Source: Bacteroidales bacterium (lineage in GTDB: Bacteria; Bacteroidota; Bacteroidia; Bacteroidales; Muribaculaceae). Taken from it: a stretch of DNA of 64,000 nt. Position 1 is the first letter of the stretch. The number at the start of each line of letters is the position of its first letter. Position numbers and translations under genes: made by a program. The DNA lies in NCBI GenBank assembly GCA_014800245.1, contig JAAVGM010000026.1, positions 1 through 64,000 on the forward strand, written 5' to 3'. Under the pieces are notes generated by a model, which did no database searches, was not told the origin of the DNA, and saw nothing but the letters and a program-made list of their open reading frames with translations. Below are positions 1,355 through 48,420 of the stretch, piece by piece.

Positions 1355-1385
1355 TTGCTTATTCGGATATTTTACCCTATCTTTG
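1355..1385 (+). promoter_or_regulatory. Bacteroidetes-type promoter (TTG / TATCTTTG)
   Basis: TATCTTTG at 1378-1385 with TTG at 1355-1357, 20 bp upstream; lies just upstream of RBS aaggaggtaaat and ATG 1410. Confidence 0.5.
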
Positions 1386-1409
1386 CACATTTACTTTAAG
1401 GAGGTAAAT

Positions 1410-2372
1410 ATGCAATATCAAGGTAACATAAAAGAATATATACAGCAGTCGTTTGGTTGGAACGTCAGATTCAGTTCTCTGAACGATGTAAAAAACAGGA
1501 TTCCATACGGAATTTTTAATGCTGCCGACTATGACTGCATAGAGATTGATAATTTCAAGGGTGTGGCGATAAAGCCTCATTCGGAGGATGATTTCAGAAT
1601 GAATAAAAATATTGCCACAACACTTGAAAAACGTCTCGATATGTCGGTTATTTTAATTTTGGACGGCATTAATTTTTATCAGAGAAAATCCCTGATTGAA
1701 AGTAGGATTGGGTTCGTGGTACCCGGTAAACAAATATATATTCCACAAATGGGTACATTGATGTCTGAACGAGGGCTTGGTATTAATTTAAGCTCCGTTG
1801 AGAAGCTTTCGGCAGTTGCAGGCGCGATGATAACCTTACACCTCGGCACAAAGTCATTGCAGGGATTGAGTATATCAGATGTTGCCAAGATTATGGGATA
1901 TTCAATAAAGACCCTTTCATTAGCTGCAGCGGAACTTGAACGTGCCGGTTTAATTTCATTCAAGTTGCAAGGACGAAAAAAGTTGCTTGGTTTTCCACTC
2001 TCGAATAAAGAGTTATGGGAAAAAGCGTTCCCAATGATTGATAGTCCAGTGGAGAAGCTACTCTTTTCGTCTAATTCAGCATTAGCTTCTGAAATCGGTG
2101 TTATATCCTCCGATTCTGCTCTCTCTGAAATCTCTATGCTTACTTCGCCCTCACAGAATACATATGCGGTATATTCCCGTAATCCCAAACTCGTTGAACT
2201 TGATTTGAATGACAGTATGGGTGATATAAAAGTAGAGGTTTGGAAAACTGACCCTACCATTTCCTCCAGGGATGGTATAATGGATATATTTTCACTTGCA
2301 TTGTCATATAAGAATGATGATGACCCAAGAGTGTGGAAAGAATTAAATAAACTAATAAACGAAGCATTATGA
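1410..2372 (+). CDS. Winged-helix AbiEi-like / MarR-like antitoxin or regulator
   Basis: The ORF track starts at TTG 1290, but ATG 1410 has a strong Shine-Dalgarno (aaggaggtaaatATG). HTH-like segment ISDVAKIMGYSIKTLSLAAAELERAGLISF; directly upstream of and overlapping an NTase gene. Confidence 0.65.
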   Translation: MQYQGNIKEYIQQSFGWNVRFSSLNDVKNRIPYGIFNAADYDCIEIDNFKGVAIKPHSEDDFRMNKNIATTLEKRLDMSVILILDGINFYQRKSLIESRIGFVVPGKQIYIPQMGTLMSERGLGINLSSVEKLSAVAGAMITLHLGTKSLQGLSISDVAKIMGYSIKTLSLAAAELERAGLISFKLQGRKKLLGFPLSNKELWEKAFPMIDSPVEKLLFSSNSALASEIGVISSDSALSEISMLTSPSQNTYAVYSRNPKLVELDLNDSMGDIKVEVWKTDPTISSRDGIMDIFSLALSYKNDDDPRVWKELNKLINEAL

Positions 2373-3142
2373 AAGGAATAGACAAGATACGTCAGTATCT
2401 CGGAAACTATAAAGGTAACTATGTGATTATAGGTGGTACAGCATGTAATCTCAATTTAGAGGAATCGAATATTCATGGGAGAGCTACGAAGGATGTAGAT
2501 ATGATTGTAGTCTGTGAAGCCTTGACTCCAGAGTATCTTCATAGCTTCTGGGAGTTCATCAAGGCAGGTGGATATAATGCATGGCAGGTAAAGTCTGAAG
2601 AAGAGACACACCGTTGCTTCTATCGTTTTATTGACCCCAAGGATAAGGATTTTCCGGTTTACATAGAACTCTTCTCCCGTAAGCCTGATGCCGTGAAGCT
2701 TCCGGAGGATGCCCATTTGGTGCATATTTCCGTTTCTGAGTACCTATCCAGTTTTTCCGCTATACTTATGGATGATGAGTATTATAGCTATGCGGTATCT
2801 CATGCCGTTGAACTGAACGGGGTTCAAGCGATTGACCATGATGCACTGATAGTGCTCAAAATTAAAGCATATCTTAATAATATCAAGCGACGCGAAGCCG
2901 GACAGAAAGTTCAGAGCGATGATATTGACAAGCATAAACGAGATGTCTATCGAATGGTTCACCTGATTACTCCGGCTGATAGGTTTGAGGCTTCGGCGAC
3001 TATCAAAGATGATATAAGGGCTTTTCTCGCATCCGTCGAGAATGATCCCATTAATACAAGGGTCATTTCAAAAAATATGGGTGTCCCGGATATTCCACAG
3101 TCAGACTTTATTGAGATTATAAAAACCGCCTACAGCTTATGA
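2369..3142 (+). CDS. Nucleotidyltransferase, AbiEii-like toxin family
   Basis: NTase signature VIIGGTACNL...RATKDVDMIVV and third acid in VYIELF; C-terminal LKIKAYLNNIKRRE...DIDKHKRDVYRM; start overlaps upstream stop (ATGA). Confidence 0.75.
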   Translation: MKGIDKIRQYLGNYKGNYVIIGGTACNLNLEESNIHGRATKDVDMIVVCEALTPEYLHSFWEFIKAGGYNAWQVKSEEETHRCFYRFIDPKDKDFPVYIELFSRKPDAVKLPEDAHLVHISVSEYLSSFSAILMDDEYYSYAVSHAVELNGVQAIDHDALIVLKIKAYLNNIKRREAGQKVQSDDIDKHKRDVYRMVHLITPADRFEASATIKDDIRAFLASVENDPINTRVISKNMGVPDIPQSDFIEIIKTAYSL

Positions 3143-3729
3143 GAATACAATACGCCTCAGATCTGCATCTCGAATTCGGAGAAAATTCAAAATGGCTTAA
3201 AGAACATCCGCTTATTCCATCAGCCGACATTCTCGTTCTTGCCGGAGACATTGGATACTTGGGAGATGACAATTATCAGAAACATCCATTCTGGGATTGG
3301 GCTTCAGAAAACTTCAAACAGGTTATTGTCGTTCCTGGCAATCATGAATTGTATAAGTACTATGACATTAATGAGCTCCACGAAGGTGTTATACTTGAAG
3401 TGCGTCCAAATGTAAAGGTCCATTACAATGATGTGATACACTTGGATGAGGAAACCGACCTAATTGTCTCCACACTTTGGGCTCACATCCCTCCGTCTGA
3501 AGCCTATCTGACAGAAAGATGTGTCAGTGATTTCACGAGAATAAAGAATGGTCAATATCGACTTAGTGCAGACCGTTTCAACAAAGAGCACGCGCGATGC
3601 CGTCAATTTATTAAGAGCGCTGTTGACGAATCCAATGCATCTACGCTTATAGTGGCTACTCATCATGTTCCCTCCTTCGAATTGATGTCTTCGGAGTTTA
3701 AGTATAGCAGTATCAACGGGGCATTCTAG
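3139..3729 (+). CDS. Metallophosphoesterase, C-terminally truncated
   Basis: Motifs SDLHLEF, LAGDIGYLGD, VPGNHELY and VATHHVP present; final GHxH motif missing before TAG at 3727-3729; ATGA overlap with upstream NTase. Confidence 0.7.
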   Translation: MRIQYASDLHLEFGENSKWLKEHPLIPSADILVLAGDIGYLGDDNYQKHPFWDWASENFKQVIVVPGNHELYKYYDINELHEGVILEVRPNVKVHYNDVIHLDEETDLIVSTLWAHIPPSEAYLTERCVSDFTRIKNGQYRLSADRFNKEHARCRQFIKSAVDESNASTLIVATHHVPSFELMSSEFKYSSINGAF

Positions 3730-3764: not shown

Positions 3765-4544
3765 TTATAAGGGTGGCATTGCAGCTTTTAGTATAGGAAT
3801 GATATTTTGACGGTAGGAAGCACCAATAGGGAGTTCAATCCTTAAGGAGTTGTTTGCCCCATAGTGAAGCACCACGCTCGAAGTATCATAGGATTCAATA
3901 TGCGTGATATTAATGATGTGCGACTTATGGATGCGAAGGAATCTATCTGAGGGCAAGTTTTGAAGGAGTGTTTTGATTGTGATGCGTGAAATTATACGCT
4001 CGGAATTAGAATGGATTCTGACATAATCTTTCACTCCTTCAACGAATATGATATCATCGGTATCAATGTTAATGAATCGTCGTTCAGCACGGAGTGTAAG
4101 GGTAGTTGATGGATATAAAGTTTTTTTATCATTCGGTATGCCGGCTCGAATCAGGGCTTTTTGCACTGCACGATTAAATCTCTCTTCACTTATGGGTTTT
4201 AACAGATAATCTATAGCATCCAGATCATAGCTTCTCACGGCATACTCGGAGAATGCGGTAGTGAAAATAATCATTGTTTCGGAAGAGAGTTGGGCGGCAA
4301 GATCGATTCCCAAAATGCCGGGCATCTCAATATCGAGAAATATAAGATCAATCGCATTTGATTTCAACCATTCCAGCGCTTCATGAGGATTGGAGAAAAC
4401 ACTCATAACCGTTAGTGAGGGATTACGAGAGGCTAATAATGCCATCCCGCGTCGCGCAATCGGTTCGTCATCGATTACAATGCAACGGAGTTTTTTCCCT
4501 AAAACAACGGAATCTGAAGAAGGCGAAGAAGGATTGTTAATCAT
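3765..4544 (-). CDS. LytTR-family response regulator
   Basis: Receiver domain CIVIDDEPIARRGM...IDLIFLDIEMPG...LKPI plus C-terminal LytTR (ERRFINIDTDDIIFVEGVKDYVRIH...RFLRIHKSHIIN). Confidence 0.92.
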   Translation of the reverse strand: MINNPSSPSSDSVVLGKKLRCIVIDDEPIARRGMALLASRNPSLTVMSVFSNPHEALEWLKSNAIDLIFLDIEMPGILGIDLAAQLSSETMIIFTTAFSEYAVRSYDLDAIDYLLKPISEERFNRAVQKALIRAGIPNDKKTLYPSTTLTLRAERRFINIDTDDIIFVEGVKDYVRIHSNSERIISRITIKTLLQNLPSDRFLRIHKSHIINITHIESYDTSSVVLHYGANNSLRIELPIGASYRQNIIPILKAAMPPL

Positions 4545-4681
4545 AAAAATCGGTTTTCCATGAAAAATAATATATCCTCAAAACGTCTTATTTTTTAAAT
4601 ATATTATATTTTGCGACCAATCACCACTTAAAAACGACCAACAGAAAATATCAAATGAAGAAAAAGTATTAATTTTGCATT

Positions 4682-6445
4682 GTGAAAAAGATTGCGCTTA
4701 ACTTATTGCTTTGGATTTTATTTTCGCTGATGCAATGCGGTCCCGTAGTCGGCACCCTGGAATATGGCGAAGAAGGAGGGCCGATGGATACCTTATGGCT
4801 GATGGTTCCTTTTTCCTTGCTTTGTTTCGGCTTGGTGCTAATAACAACCTATTACGCTGTGCCGCAATTGTTGATGCGTCAGAAATGGGGCAGCTTTGCT
4901 GCATTAGAGTTTATTTTGGCTTATATAGTCTCTTTTATCGAACAGCTACTGGTGAGCTATATATGGATTGAGTGGCATATAATTCCGGATGGACACTCCT
5001 TGCAATGGGGATGGATGTTGGTCAATACACTCTGCAATTCATTGATGCTTTTCTTTACATTGCTCGCGGTCGGAGGATGGTATCTTTTCGATTCCGGACG
5101 CAACGATGCTGCAAAGGAGAAAAGGCTCGTAGATAGAATCGAGAATTATATGGCGGAGGTAAGAAACAGACTTCGTCCGGAGATTATTTCTAAAAGATTG
5201 AAACAGATTGCAGAAAATGCAATCGTCTCTCCGCAAGAGGCTGAGAAAGATATTGCCATACTCTCCTCCGAGCTCAGAGATAGTCTGTATAGTCTTCCAT
5301 CTTCTCCGACTTTAGACCAAGACTTGGAAAGGATTGAATCCGATAACAATGTTATAAATCGCTTTCTTACATCTCGAAGGTATCGGGCAGCAAGAATATT
5401 GATTTTTCAACTCTCGCTAATTGGAATCTGTTTTGGAGCATTCTTTGCCACGCCGGATCAGCCCCAATTCGTTGAGCGGTTCGAAGGTTTTCTTGTATTG
5501 CTCGGAATGTTTGAGATTATAGCAGCGATAGATATTTTTGTTCTTTTTCGTTCATTCCGCAAAAAGAGGCGTTTGGGTAGATTTATATTCGCGTCATCTG
5601 TTTTAACGGCAATTATTATTCTTCCTATCCTTGCTGAAAGAATTAATTTATATGTGAATCATCCGGATGGGAATAATACGCTGTTCATACTTACAACTGT
5701 GCTCGCTACGGCAGCAAGTGTTTTGATGATGGTGTTTTATATAGCCGGTATAGGGGGAATGCTTCTTTATAGTGATTGGCTGCGCCATACTCGAAAGCTC
5801 ATCTTCCTCCAGGCATCTACCAAACGTCTTGAATATGCTAATCTCAAGAAGCAGATCAATCCTCATTTCCTCTTTAATGTGCTCAATAATGCGGGAATCC
5901 TGACCGAGTTTAACCCTATTGAAGCCAGAGAAATGCTTCTTGAATTGCGCCGCCTTATAGATTATCAGTTTGGAGAAACGGAACAAACGACAATAAGTCT
6001 TATCGATTCTATAGCATTTATACGCGCGTATCTTAGTCTTGAGGTTACACGCCGGGATGCTTTCAGATTTAATGTAACATGTGATGGCGATCCGGAAAGG
6101 ATTGTCGTGCCAAGTCTTCTCTTCATTCCATTTGTGGAGAATGCTGTGAAATATGCCTCTAATAAGCCGGGTGGGAATTGGGTGAATATTAAATTTAAAA
6201 TAAAAGAGAAAAATCTTATATTTGAATGTGAGAATCCCGTGGAGGTTGAAATTGATATAAAATCATTGCCTGAGTCGGGAAGACTTGGAGTGGCTAACAC
6301 TATAAGACGACTCGAACTCCTTTATGATATAAATTTCAAATACCGCGTTGAGTGTCGGAATGGTATCTATCAGGTTGTGTTAGAAATTCCATTAGACTTA
6401 GACTCCATTGTGGTTCTCTCAAAAAACGCCTTATTGAAGAACTAA
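4682..6445 (+). CDS. LytS/YehU-type sensor histidine kinase
   Basis: KKQINPHFLFNVLNN phospho-acceptor motif, HATPase region (PSLLFIPFVENAVKYA), multiple TM segments; divergent from the LytTR regulator. Confidence 0.9.
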   Translation: MKKIALNLLLWILFSLMQCGPVVGTLEYGEEGGPMDTLWLMVPFSLLCFGLVLITTYYAVPQLLMRQKWGSFAALEFILAYIVSFIEQLLVSYIWIEWHIIPDGHSLQWGWMLVNTLCNSLMLFFTLLAVGGWYLFDSGRNDAAKEKRLVDRIENYMAEVRNRLRPEIISKRLKQIAENAIVSPQEAEKDIAILSSELRDSLYSLPSSPTLDQDLERIESDNNVINRFLTSRRYRAARILIFQLSLIGICFGAFFATPDQPQFVERFEGFLVLLGMFEIIAAIDIFVLFRSFRKKRRLGRFIFASSVLTAIIILPILAERINLYVNHPDGNNTLFILTTVLATAASVLMMVFYIAGIGGMLLYSDWLRHTRKLIFLQASTKRLEYANLKKQINPHFLFNVLNNAGILTEFNPIEAREMLLELRRLIDYQFGETEQTTISLIDSIAFIRAYLSLEVTRRDAFRFNVTCDGDPERIVVPSLLFIPFVENAVKYASNKPGGNWVNIKFKIKEKNLIFECENPVEVEIDIKSLPESGRLGVANTIRRLELLYDINFKYRVECRNGIYQVVLEIPLDLDSIVVLSKNALLKN

Positions 6446-6476: not shown

Positions 6477-7910
6477 ATGAGATTGCTAAAAATTATTTTG
6501 GCGTTTGTCTTTTTGCTATCGACAAATAGCGCAATCTATGGAGCCGACTATTCGGATTCCAACTTTACCTATAAGTATAGCAAAACGCAAAAATTCGCAC
6601 GTGTTGAGACCACGAAAAAAAAGACAGCTACGTCGCTTACAATTCCGTCTAAGATAACGGTGAGTGGCGTTTCGTATCCCGTGACACAGATCGGTGATTA
6701 TGCTCTCTCAGATCTGCAGAATCTGAAATCTGTGACTATTCCATCATCCGTGACAGAGATTCGTAGCGGGGCATTCAGTAATTGCTTTGAACTTCGTTCG
6801 GTTAAAATCCCTTCAAAGGTTACAAAAATCTCAGACTACTGCTTTTCAATGTGCCTTGAATTGACAGAAGTGAGCCTGCCTAAAGGTCTTGTAGAGATTG
6901 GAGAGGGAGCTTTTATGTATTGCGGAAAAATTGAAATTATCAATTGGCCGTCAACACTTACAAAAGTTGGAGGATATGCATTTAATGGAGCTAAGCTTCC
7001 TGAGTTAGTTGCGCTTCCGGCCGCATGTGTGGAGGTAGGGGATGAAGCCTTTCGTGCCACTGATGTGGTCAACTTCCAATTGCCCTCTAAGATGACATCG
7101 ATCGGTAAAAAGGCATTTGCGGATAACGGCAATCTATTGGGTCTGACAATGCCTACATCTGTAAACACTATAGGTGACCTTGCTTTCTTTGGAAATAATG
7201 AGCTTATGTATGTCACCCTTCCGCAGACCATCGGGCGTATGGGTGAAGGAGTGTTTATGGATTGCGACAAGATGAATCAGGTATATTGGTCGCCGAGCTT
7301 GACTACAGTTCCTAATCGTACATTCTCACGGTGTGAAGAATTAGAATGGATTACGTTGCCGGATAATGTAACATCTATTGGTGATGAAGCATTCTGCGAA
7401 TGTTATTCTCTTAAAGAGTTTCATTTTCCAACACAGCTTAAGACCATAGGAAACAACGCCTTTGATAATTGTAACCTTGGGGAAGTGACTTTCCCATCGG
7501 GGCTGACAAAAATTGGAGATGCCGCTTTTTACGCAAATTCACGATTGGAGACTTTAACTATTCCTGCTTCAGTAACTGAAATCGGATCACATGCATTTGA
7601 CTATAATCCACATCTTGATACGATCAAGGTCGAAAGTGCAACTCCACCGATTCTCGGCTCTGATGGATTTAACCAATATACATATTTTTCTGCTATGTTA
7701 ATGGTGCCGGAACAATCTGTGATGGCATACAAACGCGCGGGTGAATGGTGTAATTTTCAATATATCAACGACCGTCCGACCGGGATTGATGAAATTTTCA
7801 GTGAAAATGATGATGAGAAGGATCTTTATGATTTGCAAGGCCGAAGATCAACATCAAGCAAAGGATTTAAGATTAATCCACGTACGCGACGCGTAGAGAT
7901 TAGACGATAA
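6477..7910 (+). CDS. Secreted BspA-like leucine-rich repeat (LRR_5) protein
   Basis: Signal peptide; repeated SVTxIGxxAFxxCxxLxxVTIPSxVTxIGxxAF units; C-terminal DLYDLQGRR...KGFKINPRTRRVEIRR resembling Bacteroidetes sorting-type tails. Confidence 0.9.
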   Translation: MRLLKIILAFVFLLSTNSAIYGADYSDSNFTYKYSKTQKFARVETTKKKTATSLTIPSKITVSGVSYPVTQIGDYALSDLQNLKSVTIPSSVTEIRSGAFSNCFELRSVKIPSKVTKISDYCFSMCLELTEVSLPKGLVEIGEGAFMYCGKIEIINWPSTLTKVGGYAFNGAKLPELVALPAACVEVGDEAFRATDVVNFQLPSKMTSIGKKAFADNGNLLGLTMPTSVNTIGDLAFFGNNELMYVTLPQTIGRMGEGVFMDCDKMNQVYWSPSLTTVPNRTFSRCEELEWITLPDNVTSIGDEAFCECYSLKEFHFPTQLKTIGNNAFDNCNLGEVTFPSGLTKIGDAAFYANSRLETLTIPASVTEIGSHAFDYNPHLDTIKVESATPPILGSDGFNQYTYFSAMLMVPEQSVMAYKRAGEWCNFQYINDRPTGIDEIFSENDDEKDLYDLQGRRSTSSKGFKINPRTRRVEIRR

Positions 7911-48253: not shown

Positions 48254-48324
48254 TGCCTTGTGGTGTAATGGTAGCACACCGGATTCTGGTTCCGTTTGTG
48301 AGAGTTCGAGTCTTTCCAAGGCAA
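48254..48324 (+). tRNA. tRNA-Gln (anticodon CTG)
   Basis: Cloverleaf: acceptor TGCCTTG/CAAGGCA, D arm GTGTAATGGTAGCAC, anticodon loop TTCTGGT, T arm GAGAG-TTCGAGT-CTTTC; CCA not encoded. Confidence 0.92.
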
Positions 48325-48344
48325 CATTTTTTAGGGTTAAACGA

Positions 48345-48415
48345 TGCCTTGTGGTGTAATGGTAGCACACCGGATTCTGGTTCCGTTTGTGAGAGTTCGA
48401 GTCTTTCCAAGGCAA
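48345..48415 (+). tRNA. tRNA-Gln (anticodon CTG), second identical copy
   Basis: Sequence identical to 48254-48324; 20-bp spacer between copies. Confidence 0.92.
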
Positions 48416-48420
48416 CTTAA

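Follow-up and report, generated by a model that had tools for sequence, protein, structure and literature searches.

AbiE has been ranked fourth in abundance among prokaryotic phage defence systems (PMC11375011), and its loci have been reported to be bicistronic (Dy 2014, PMC3985639). In AbiE loci (AbiEi–AbiEii, including the COG4861–COG4849 pairs and MenAT), a winged helix-turn-helix (wHTH) gene lies directly ahead of, and overlaps, a nucleotidyltransferase (NTase) gene. MenT toxins extend tRNA 3′ ends (PMC10435456, PMC11541572), and the tails made by MenT3 are trimmed by PcnA (PMC11541572). MenT3/TglT–TakA and MenAT1 of M. tuberculosis contain NTases of the AbiEii type with a Ser/Thr off-switch in motif II: phosphorylation at S78 of MenT3/TglT or at T39 of MenT1 shuts the toxin off (PMC7205606, PMC11375011). 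An unidentified phosphatase was postulated by Yu et al. 2020 (PMC7205606), and MenT3 is dephosphorylated in vitro by PstP (PMC11541572). The descriptions of those loci include no phosphoesterase of their own and turn instead to PstP or an unidentified phosphatase (PMC11541572, PMC7205606). Among candidate families, PADLOC PDC-M21 joins a short wHTH protein (PDC-M21A, here W2) to an NTase with the motif R-x-T-x-D-V-D (PDC-M21B, here N2), the entry as found covering genes A and B only. The PADLOC candidate PDC-S10 and PHROG 1649 have a metallophosphoesterase (MPE) fold, and neither implies an NTase partner.

Here we compare with these systems a locus from a Muribaculaceae genome (contig JAAVGM010000026.1, positions 1 to 64,000; this 64,000-nt stretch is referred to as the window), in which a wHTH gene (W), an NTase gene (N) and an MPE gene (M) overlap in series. 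Among AbiE-like loci, the W–N pair forms a new branch that has no name.

A wHTH–NTase–MPE cassette

The cassette starts ~1.4 kb from the beginning of the contig, in a genome that is 70% complete, and has the following features.

1355..1385, + strand: Bacteroidota-type promoter-like element by sequence match (TTG at 1355-1357, a 20-nt spacer, TATCTTTG at 1378-1385)
1398..1404, + strand: ribosome-binding site AAGGAGG, preceding ATG 1410
1410..2372, + strand: gene 1 (W), 320 aa; N-terminal alpha/beta domain (~1-125), MarR-like winged helix (~130-198) and C-terminal domain
2369..2372, + strand: ATGA overlap of genes 1 and 2 (mostly an ATGGTAA overlap in relatives)
2369..3142, + strand: gene 2 (N), 257 aa; Pol-beta-type nucleotidyltransferase, AbiEii-like
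2432-2437, 2486-2488, 2492-2494 and 2498-2500, + strand: gene 2 motif residues GG, T40, D42 and D44 (alignment numbering)
3139..3142, + strand: ATGA overlap of genes 2 and 3 (a 4-nt N–M overlap is also found in most wHTH–NTase–MPE relatives)
3139..3729, + strand: gene 3 (M), 196 aa; truncated MPE
3160-3168, 3244-3249, 3337-3348 and 3661-3666, + strand: motifs DLH, GD, GNHE and HH kept in gene 3 (alignment)

The three open reading frames and both ATGA overlaps lie where a preliminary description of this DNA had placed them, as do the promoter-like box at 1378 and the ribosome-binding site, whose functions are predicted from sequence. The Bacteroidota promoter consensus consists of TTG and a −7 box, TAnnTTTG, with which TATCTTTG agrees, marking a putative promoter. 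Compared with their relatives, genes 1 and 2 have their full length, and the W–N overlap measures 7 nt in 70 of the 78 relatives for which it was determined.

Genes 1 and 2 resemble AbiE proteins

Gene 1 had been proposed to contain a winged-helix-like segment and to occupy the position of an AbiEi antitoxin gene. Profile and structure searches locate an HTH/MarR-type stretch at residues ~150-195, and the gene sits upstream of, and overlaps, the NTase gene as in AbiE. Pfam returns only weak HTH matches, with no match to AbiEi_2 (PF09952), and the protein has no name in NCBIfam or PADLOC. Its structure model (pLDDT 92) shows the MarR-like wHTH mid-way in a three-part protein; for the N- and C-terminal parts, searches of the PDB and BFVD gave little beyond the MarR-like wHTH itself. 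Alignment of the gene 1 profile with AbiEi_2 proteins by hhalign gave P=1.3e-8 over 234 collinear columns, compared with 0.4 for the reversed control. The wHTH, which gives 1e-7 by itself, contributes most of this signal; the flanks are correctly placed but weak (0.012 and 0.08, against reversed controls of 0.2-0.5). AbiEi_2 genes of Bacteroidota themselves precede NTase-like genes. Gene 1 thus appears to be a distant relative of the AbiEi_2 antitoxins, with a likeness confined to the profile–profile level.

The NTase signature attributed to gene 2 is borne out by an alignment of 58 family members, in which G22G23, R38-x-T40-x-D42-V-D44 and E100 are invariant. Indeed, the GG, RxTxDhD, third acidic residue, Lys and KHxxD elements are each kept in 57-58 of the 58. 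Of the motifs that Dy et al. 2014 (PMC3985639) give for AbiEii, I–III are present: G22, G23, R38, D42 and D44 occur in 58/58, although the motif I–II spacing is longer (x18 compared with the x15 given for AbiEii), and the KLxAa motif III is represented by K164 and A167 in 58/58, with an aromatic residue nearly always at position 168. Motif IV differs. In place of +DxxD the family has KHxxD, with His189 (58/58) for the first Asp and with Asp192 kept.

Gene 2 of the window has no Pfam match at all, PF08843 (AbiEii) included, and is named by neither NCBIfam nor PADLOC; PF08843 is matched at E<=0.01 by 11 of the 58 relatives. A profile–profile comparison of the motif-I/II region with an AbiEii set gave P=9e-5 over 43 columns. 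A search of solved folds with the AlphaFold model (pLDDT 84) ranks H. pylori JHP933 first (E=1.4e-4), a nucleotidyltransferase-superfamily protein according to the title of the paper describing it (PMC4125220), with low TM-scores of 0.32-0.39 for the fold matches; a search by sequence found no solved relative. PADLOC likewise gave no PDC-M21A/B profile match to genes 1 and 2, and W2 and N2 are other protein families than W and N of the window.

The preliminary assignment of the pair to AbiE therefore survives in part. The gene layout, NTase motifs I–III and an accessory, mobile distribution are shared with AbiE; the third coupled gene is a difference, and we do not file the pair under AbiE, as it departs from that system in two tested features, motif IV and the PF08843 match. 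From these sequence comparisons, genes 1 and 2 probably work like AbiE and descend with it, and it is likely that the pair is a toxin–antitoxin (TA) module. It adds an NTase–TA family that the searched family libraries do not name.

The three-gene linkage recurs

A scan of the genome_contigs collection found at least 531 relatives of gene 2, spread over more than 500 contigs from species-representative genomes, and 80 loci were fetched. The MPE gene lies directly beside the W–N pair in 58 of the 72 loci visible on both sides (81%), a proportion that is biased, since the ranking of loci favored those resembling a query with an MPE of its own. These 72 loci comprise 49 with the order MPE–wHTH–NTase, 9 with the order wHTH–NTase–MPE and 14 without an adjacent MPE; of the nine, eight were called by script and one (L086) was added, its annotated MPE start overlapping the NTase by 68 nt. 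A less biased sample was provided by 295 Bacteroidales genomes drawn regardless of the MPE. Members of the NTase family are present in about 20 of these genomes and members of the MPE family in 49; the MPE is adjacent at about 8 of 18 NTase loci. By our arithmetic, with ~58 MPE positions spread over about 1 Gb, the probability that an MPE would fall by chance within 2 kb of one of 20 loci is well under 0.01.

The MPE is also inherited with its neighbors. Within the MPE–wHTH–NTase loci, N–M distances correlate as strongly as N–W distances (Mantel r 0.62 and 0.62), with 0 of 2000 permutations as high. In the NTase tree, which has moderate support, all MPE–wHTH–NTase loci fall in one sector and all wHTH–NTase–MPE loci, that of the window among them, in another; the MPE-less pairs of other phyla and of plasmids lie outside, and losses of the MPE are scattered inside. 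This pattern fits either two recruitments of the MPE or one switch of gene order. W–N pairs without an MPE are common and are found on plasmids from Pseudomonas, Shinella, Latilactobacillus and Acetoanaerobium (L267, L268, L269, L271). Where annotated, the plasmid genes are called hypothetical protein or MarR regulator.

Neither a gene 3 unlinked to the pair nor a gene 2 without catalytic residues is what we found: the NTase residues are kept, and the neighborhood survey shows the recurrent three-gene organization that the preliminary description had anticipated, in two orders that occupy different phylogenetic sectors. The linkage of all three genes is real, and it recurs.

Other NTase pairs with the MPE, and solitary copies

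Within the window's own family, the MPE nearest to the window copy (68% identity) belongs to another pair, W2–N2–MPE (L124), with a 4-nt overlap between N2 and the MPE. The W2 and N2 proteins of this locus match PDC-M21A/B at 3e-48 and 8e-48, so that PDC-M21 can carry the same MPE subfamily. In one case N2 and the MPE are fused into a single 492-aa protein in which the catalytic motifs of both enzymes are intact (L129:3365-4843), and a shortened N2–MPE fusion is present in L189. Canonical AbiEii genes matching PF08843 are further neighbors of the MPE, in the arrangements MPE–AbiEi–AbiEii (L222), AbiEi–AbiEii–MPE (L223) and, on a contig from a viral collection (L297), AbiEi–AbiEii–MPE with a 4-nt ATGA overlap. 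A more distant MPE is arranged divergently, head-to-head with AbiEi_4–AbiEii, in many genomes of one genus (g206; L232-L245). In the MPE tree, the joins to different NTase pairs are separate.

Our searched literature, which excludes subscription papers and preprints, contains no description of an MPE partner recurring across three NTase families. The terms "AbiEii" and "metallophosphoesterase" co-occurred only in a Fusobacterium phage genome paper, with one mention each, and "AbiEii" with "phosphoesterase" gave none.

The MPE is not exclusive to the W–N pair, a possibility that is rejected by its often solitary occurrence: in most Bacteroidales genomes that have it, the MPE stands alone. It is also found in type I restriction–modification (R-M) loci (L118, L125, L220), in one of which (L220:1480-3101) it shares 4 nt with a BRO-domain (DinD-like) gene, and distant relatives occur in many phages. 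PHROG_1649 covers residues 1-196 of the window MPE (E=2.3e-27), whereas PDC-S10 matches only part of the MPE (E 2e-11 to 3e-6). Such a distribution would also be expected of a defence gene with its own effector or nuclease activity that is carried beside other defence genes, NTase toxins included, and is biochemically independent of them; the solitary copies, the R-M loci with the BRO-domain overlap, the weak PDC-S10 matches and the phage relatives all point that way. The same-strand adjacency to three NTase families, the fusion and an N–M co-inheritance as tight as that of N and W are, however, more specific than clustering in defence islands, and we regard independence as rather unlikely. 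Because the linkage recurs in two orders and the MPE is adjacent to two other wHTH–NTase pairs as well, we read it as a recruited accessory and not as an incidental neighbor. On these gene arrangements, the MPE is a repeatedly recruited, dispensable accessory of the predicted NTase toxins, its subfamily having joined wHTH–NTase pairs of at least three kinds. A role as the essential antitoxin is disfavored, as the MPE has been lost repeatedly while the wHTH and NTase genes remain and is truncated in the window.

Gene 3 of the window is truncated

Gene 3 had been described as a metallophosphoesterase, and its match to Metallophos (PF00149; E=5.1e-10, 40.5 bits compared with a Pfam cut-off of 21.5) agrees with this; the copy is nevertheless incomplete and lacks the last metal-binding motif. 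The protein stops at residue 196 (...INGAF-stop), compared with ~253 aa in relatives. The missing ~55 C-terminal residues, which include the GHxH motif, are present in 32 aligned relatives (GH in 32/32, GHxH in 31), and the metal site of the window MPE is thus not complete. The remainder was sought in the ~35 bp between gene 3 and the convergent LytTR gene and is absent there. Because the GHxH-bearing end is missing and was not found downstream, the window MPE is most likely inactive, or else the contig is misjoined at the end of gene 3. This end may be a deletion junction or a misassembly, and a misjoin is possible given that the window begins its contig and that the genome is 70% complete. 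The third function has probably been lost in this genome. The preliminary description had suggested that gene 3 reverses or processes nucleotidylated substrates; without the last metal-binding motif, the window copy could hardly do so.

These features raise the question of whether gene 3 is simply an incidental or decaying neighbor, a truncated remnant beside genes 1 and 2 that act alone. The 196-aa length without GHxH, the several losses of the MPE among relatives and the end of gene 3 just ahead of an unrelated convergent gene are what such decay would leave. This account is valid for the window copy but does not extend to the family, where the linkage has been kept and where a merely incidental MPE is rejected by the neighborhood counts, the two gene orders, the fusion and the co-inheritance; as an explanation of the third gene we consider it improbable.

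Possible roles of the MPE

Our preferred reading, to which we assign a probability of about 0.45, is that the locus is a divergent AbiE-like TA pair with a recruited MPE that cleaves a phosphoester made by the toxin. By analogy with MenT and AbiEii, the gene 2 toxin would add nucleotides to an RNA 3′ end, whereupon growth would stop, and gene 1 would be an autoregulating, AbiEi_2-like antitoxin that represses and neutralizes gene 2. The MPE would be made together with the toxin, in one case as part of the toxin protein, and would cleave the phosphoester, the first choice being the added RNA 3′ tail. Removal of the tail would limit or end the effect of the toxin, with the MPE acting as an accessory and not as the main antitoxin. 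The component claims differ in strength: a functional tie between MPE and NTase is likely from the genomic associations, while RNA-tail processing as its specific form, suggested by analogy, is tentative. Several observations weigh against the preferred reading as a whole. The MPE is found alone or in type I R-M loci, and its substrate may therefore not come from an NTase; W–N pairs without an MPE are common; and gene 2 of the window has no AbiEii Pfam match and only low fold TM-scores.

The off-switch of the M. tuberculosis toxins suggests a different substrate, the toxin itself. Contact with the antitoxin would lead the NTase to phosphorylate its own motif-II Ser/Thr and so turn off, and the MPE would remove the phosphate and turn it on again, supplying a phosphatase of the kind that Yu et al. 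postulated; PstP acts on MenT3 in this way in vitro. In our alignment all N (58/58) and N2 (12/12) proteins have Thr at the equivalent position, where 24/25 AbiEii proteins have Ser or Thr, and translational coupling and the N2–MPE fusion would bring enzyme and target together. Yet this residue is conserved whether or not the NTase is accompanied by an MPE, a solitary MPE would have no target, and the MPE has the motif AGDI/AGDV instead of the GDxxDRG signature of PPP protein phosphatases. We consider toxin dephosphorylation unlikely. Removal of an RNA tail is favored over it on two grounds: the PPP signature is missing, and the MPE also occurs where there is no NTase, as would better suit a nucleic-acid substrate.

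An MPE that is coupled to and co-inherited with several NTases, and once fused, is a concrete candidate for toxin re-activation or damage reversal. A write/erase class of three-component TA systems, in which an MPE module shared by unrelated AbiE-type NTases re-activates phosphorylated toxins as their dedicated phosphatase or erases RNA 3′ tails and which annotation tools miss, is conceivable at somewhat less than even odds. Intact loci occur in culturable Bacteroides and Flavobacterium, one example being the wHTH–NTase–MPE locus L088 of Bacteroides gallinarum. The case for novelty is weaker for the window itself because its MPE is truncated.

Surroundings of the cassette

Upstream of the cassette, positions 1-1290 contain short open reading frames, three of them without a Pfam match, and no full-length gene can be named; the frame at 187-351 (MDHKFTEQIKQWLDTPEAERDY...) runs into an in-frame stop right after. 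The stretch looks like mobile-element remnants. An empty site corresponding to the window locus was sought through the LytTR neighbor and none was found, the LytTR proteins being too divergent in family members (best 43%). Downstream, the convergent LytTR gene, with its stop codon at 3765-3767, starts ~35 bp beyond the end of gene 3. It encodes a response regulator and is divergently arranged with a gene for a histidine-kinase-like membrane protein, the two adjoining the cassette at 3765-6445. The histidine-kinase-like gene is followed by one encoding a leucine-rich-repeat-like protein (6477-7910). Farther along the window, two tandem tRNA-Gln(CTG) genes are located at 48254-48416.
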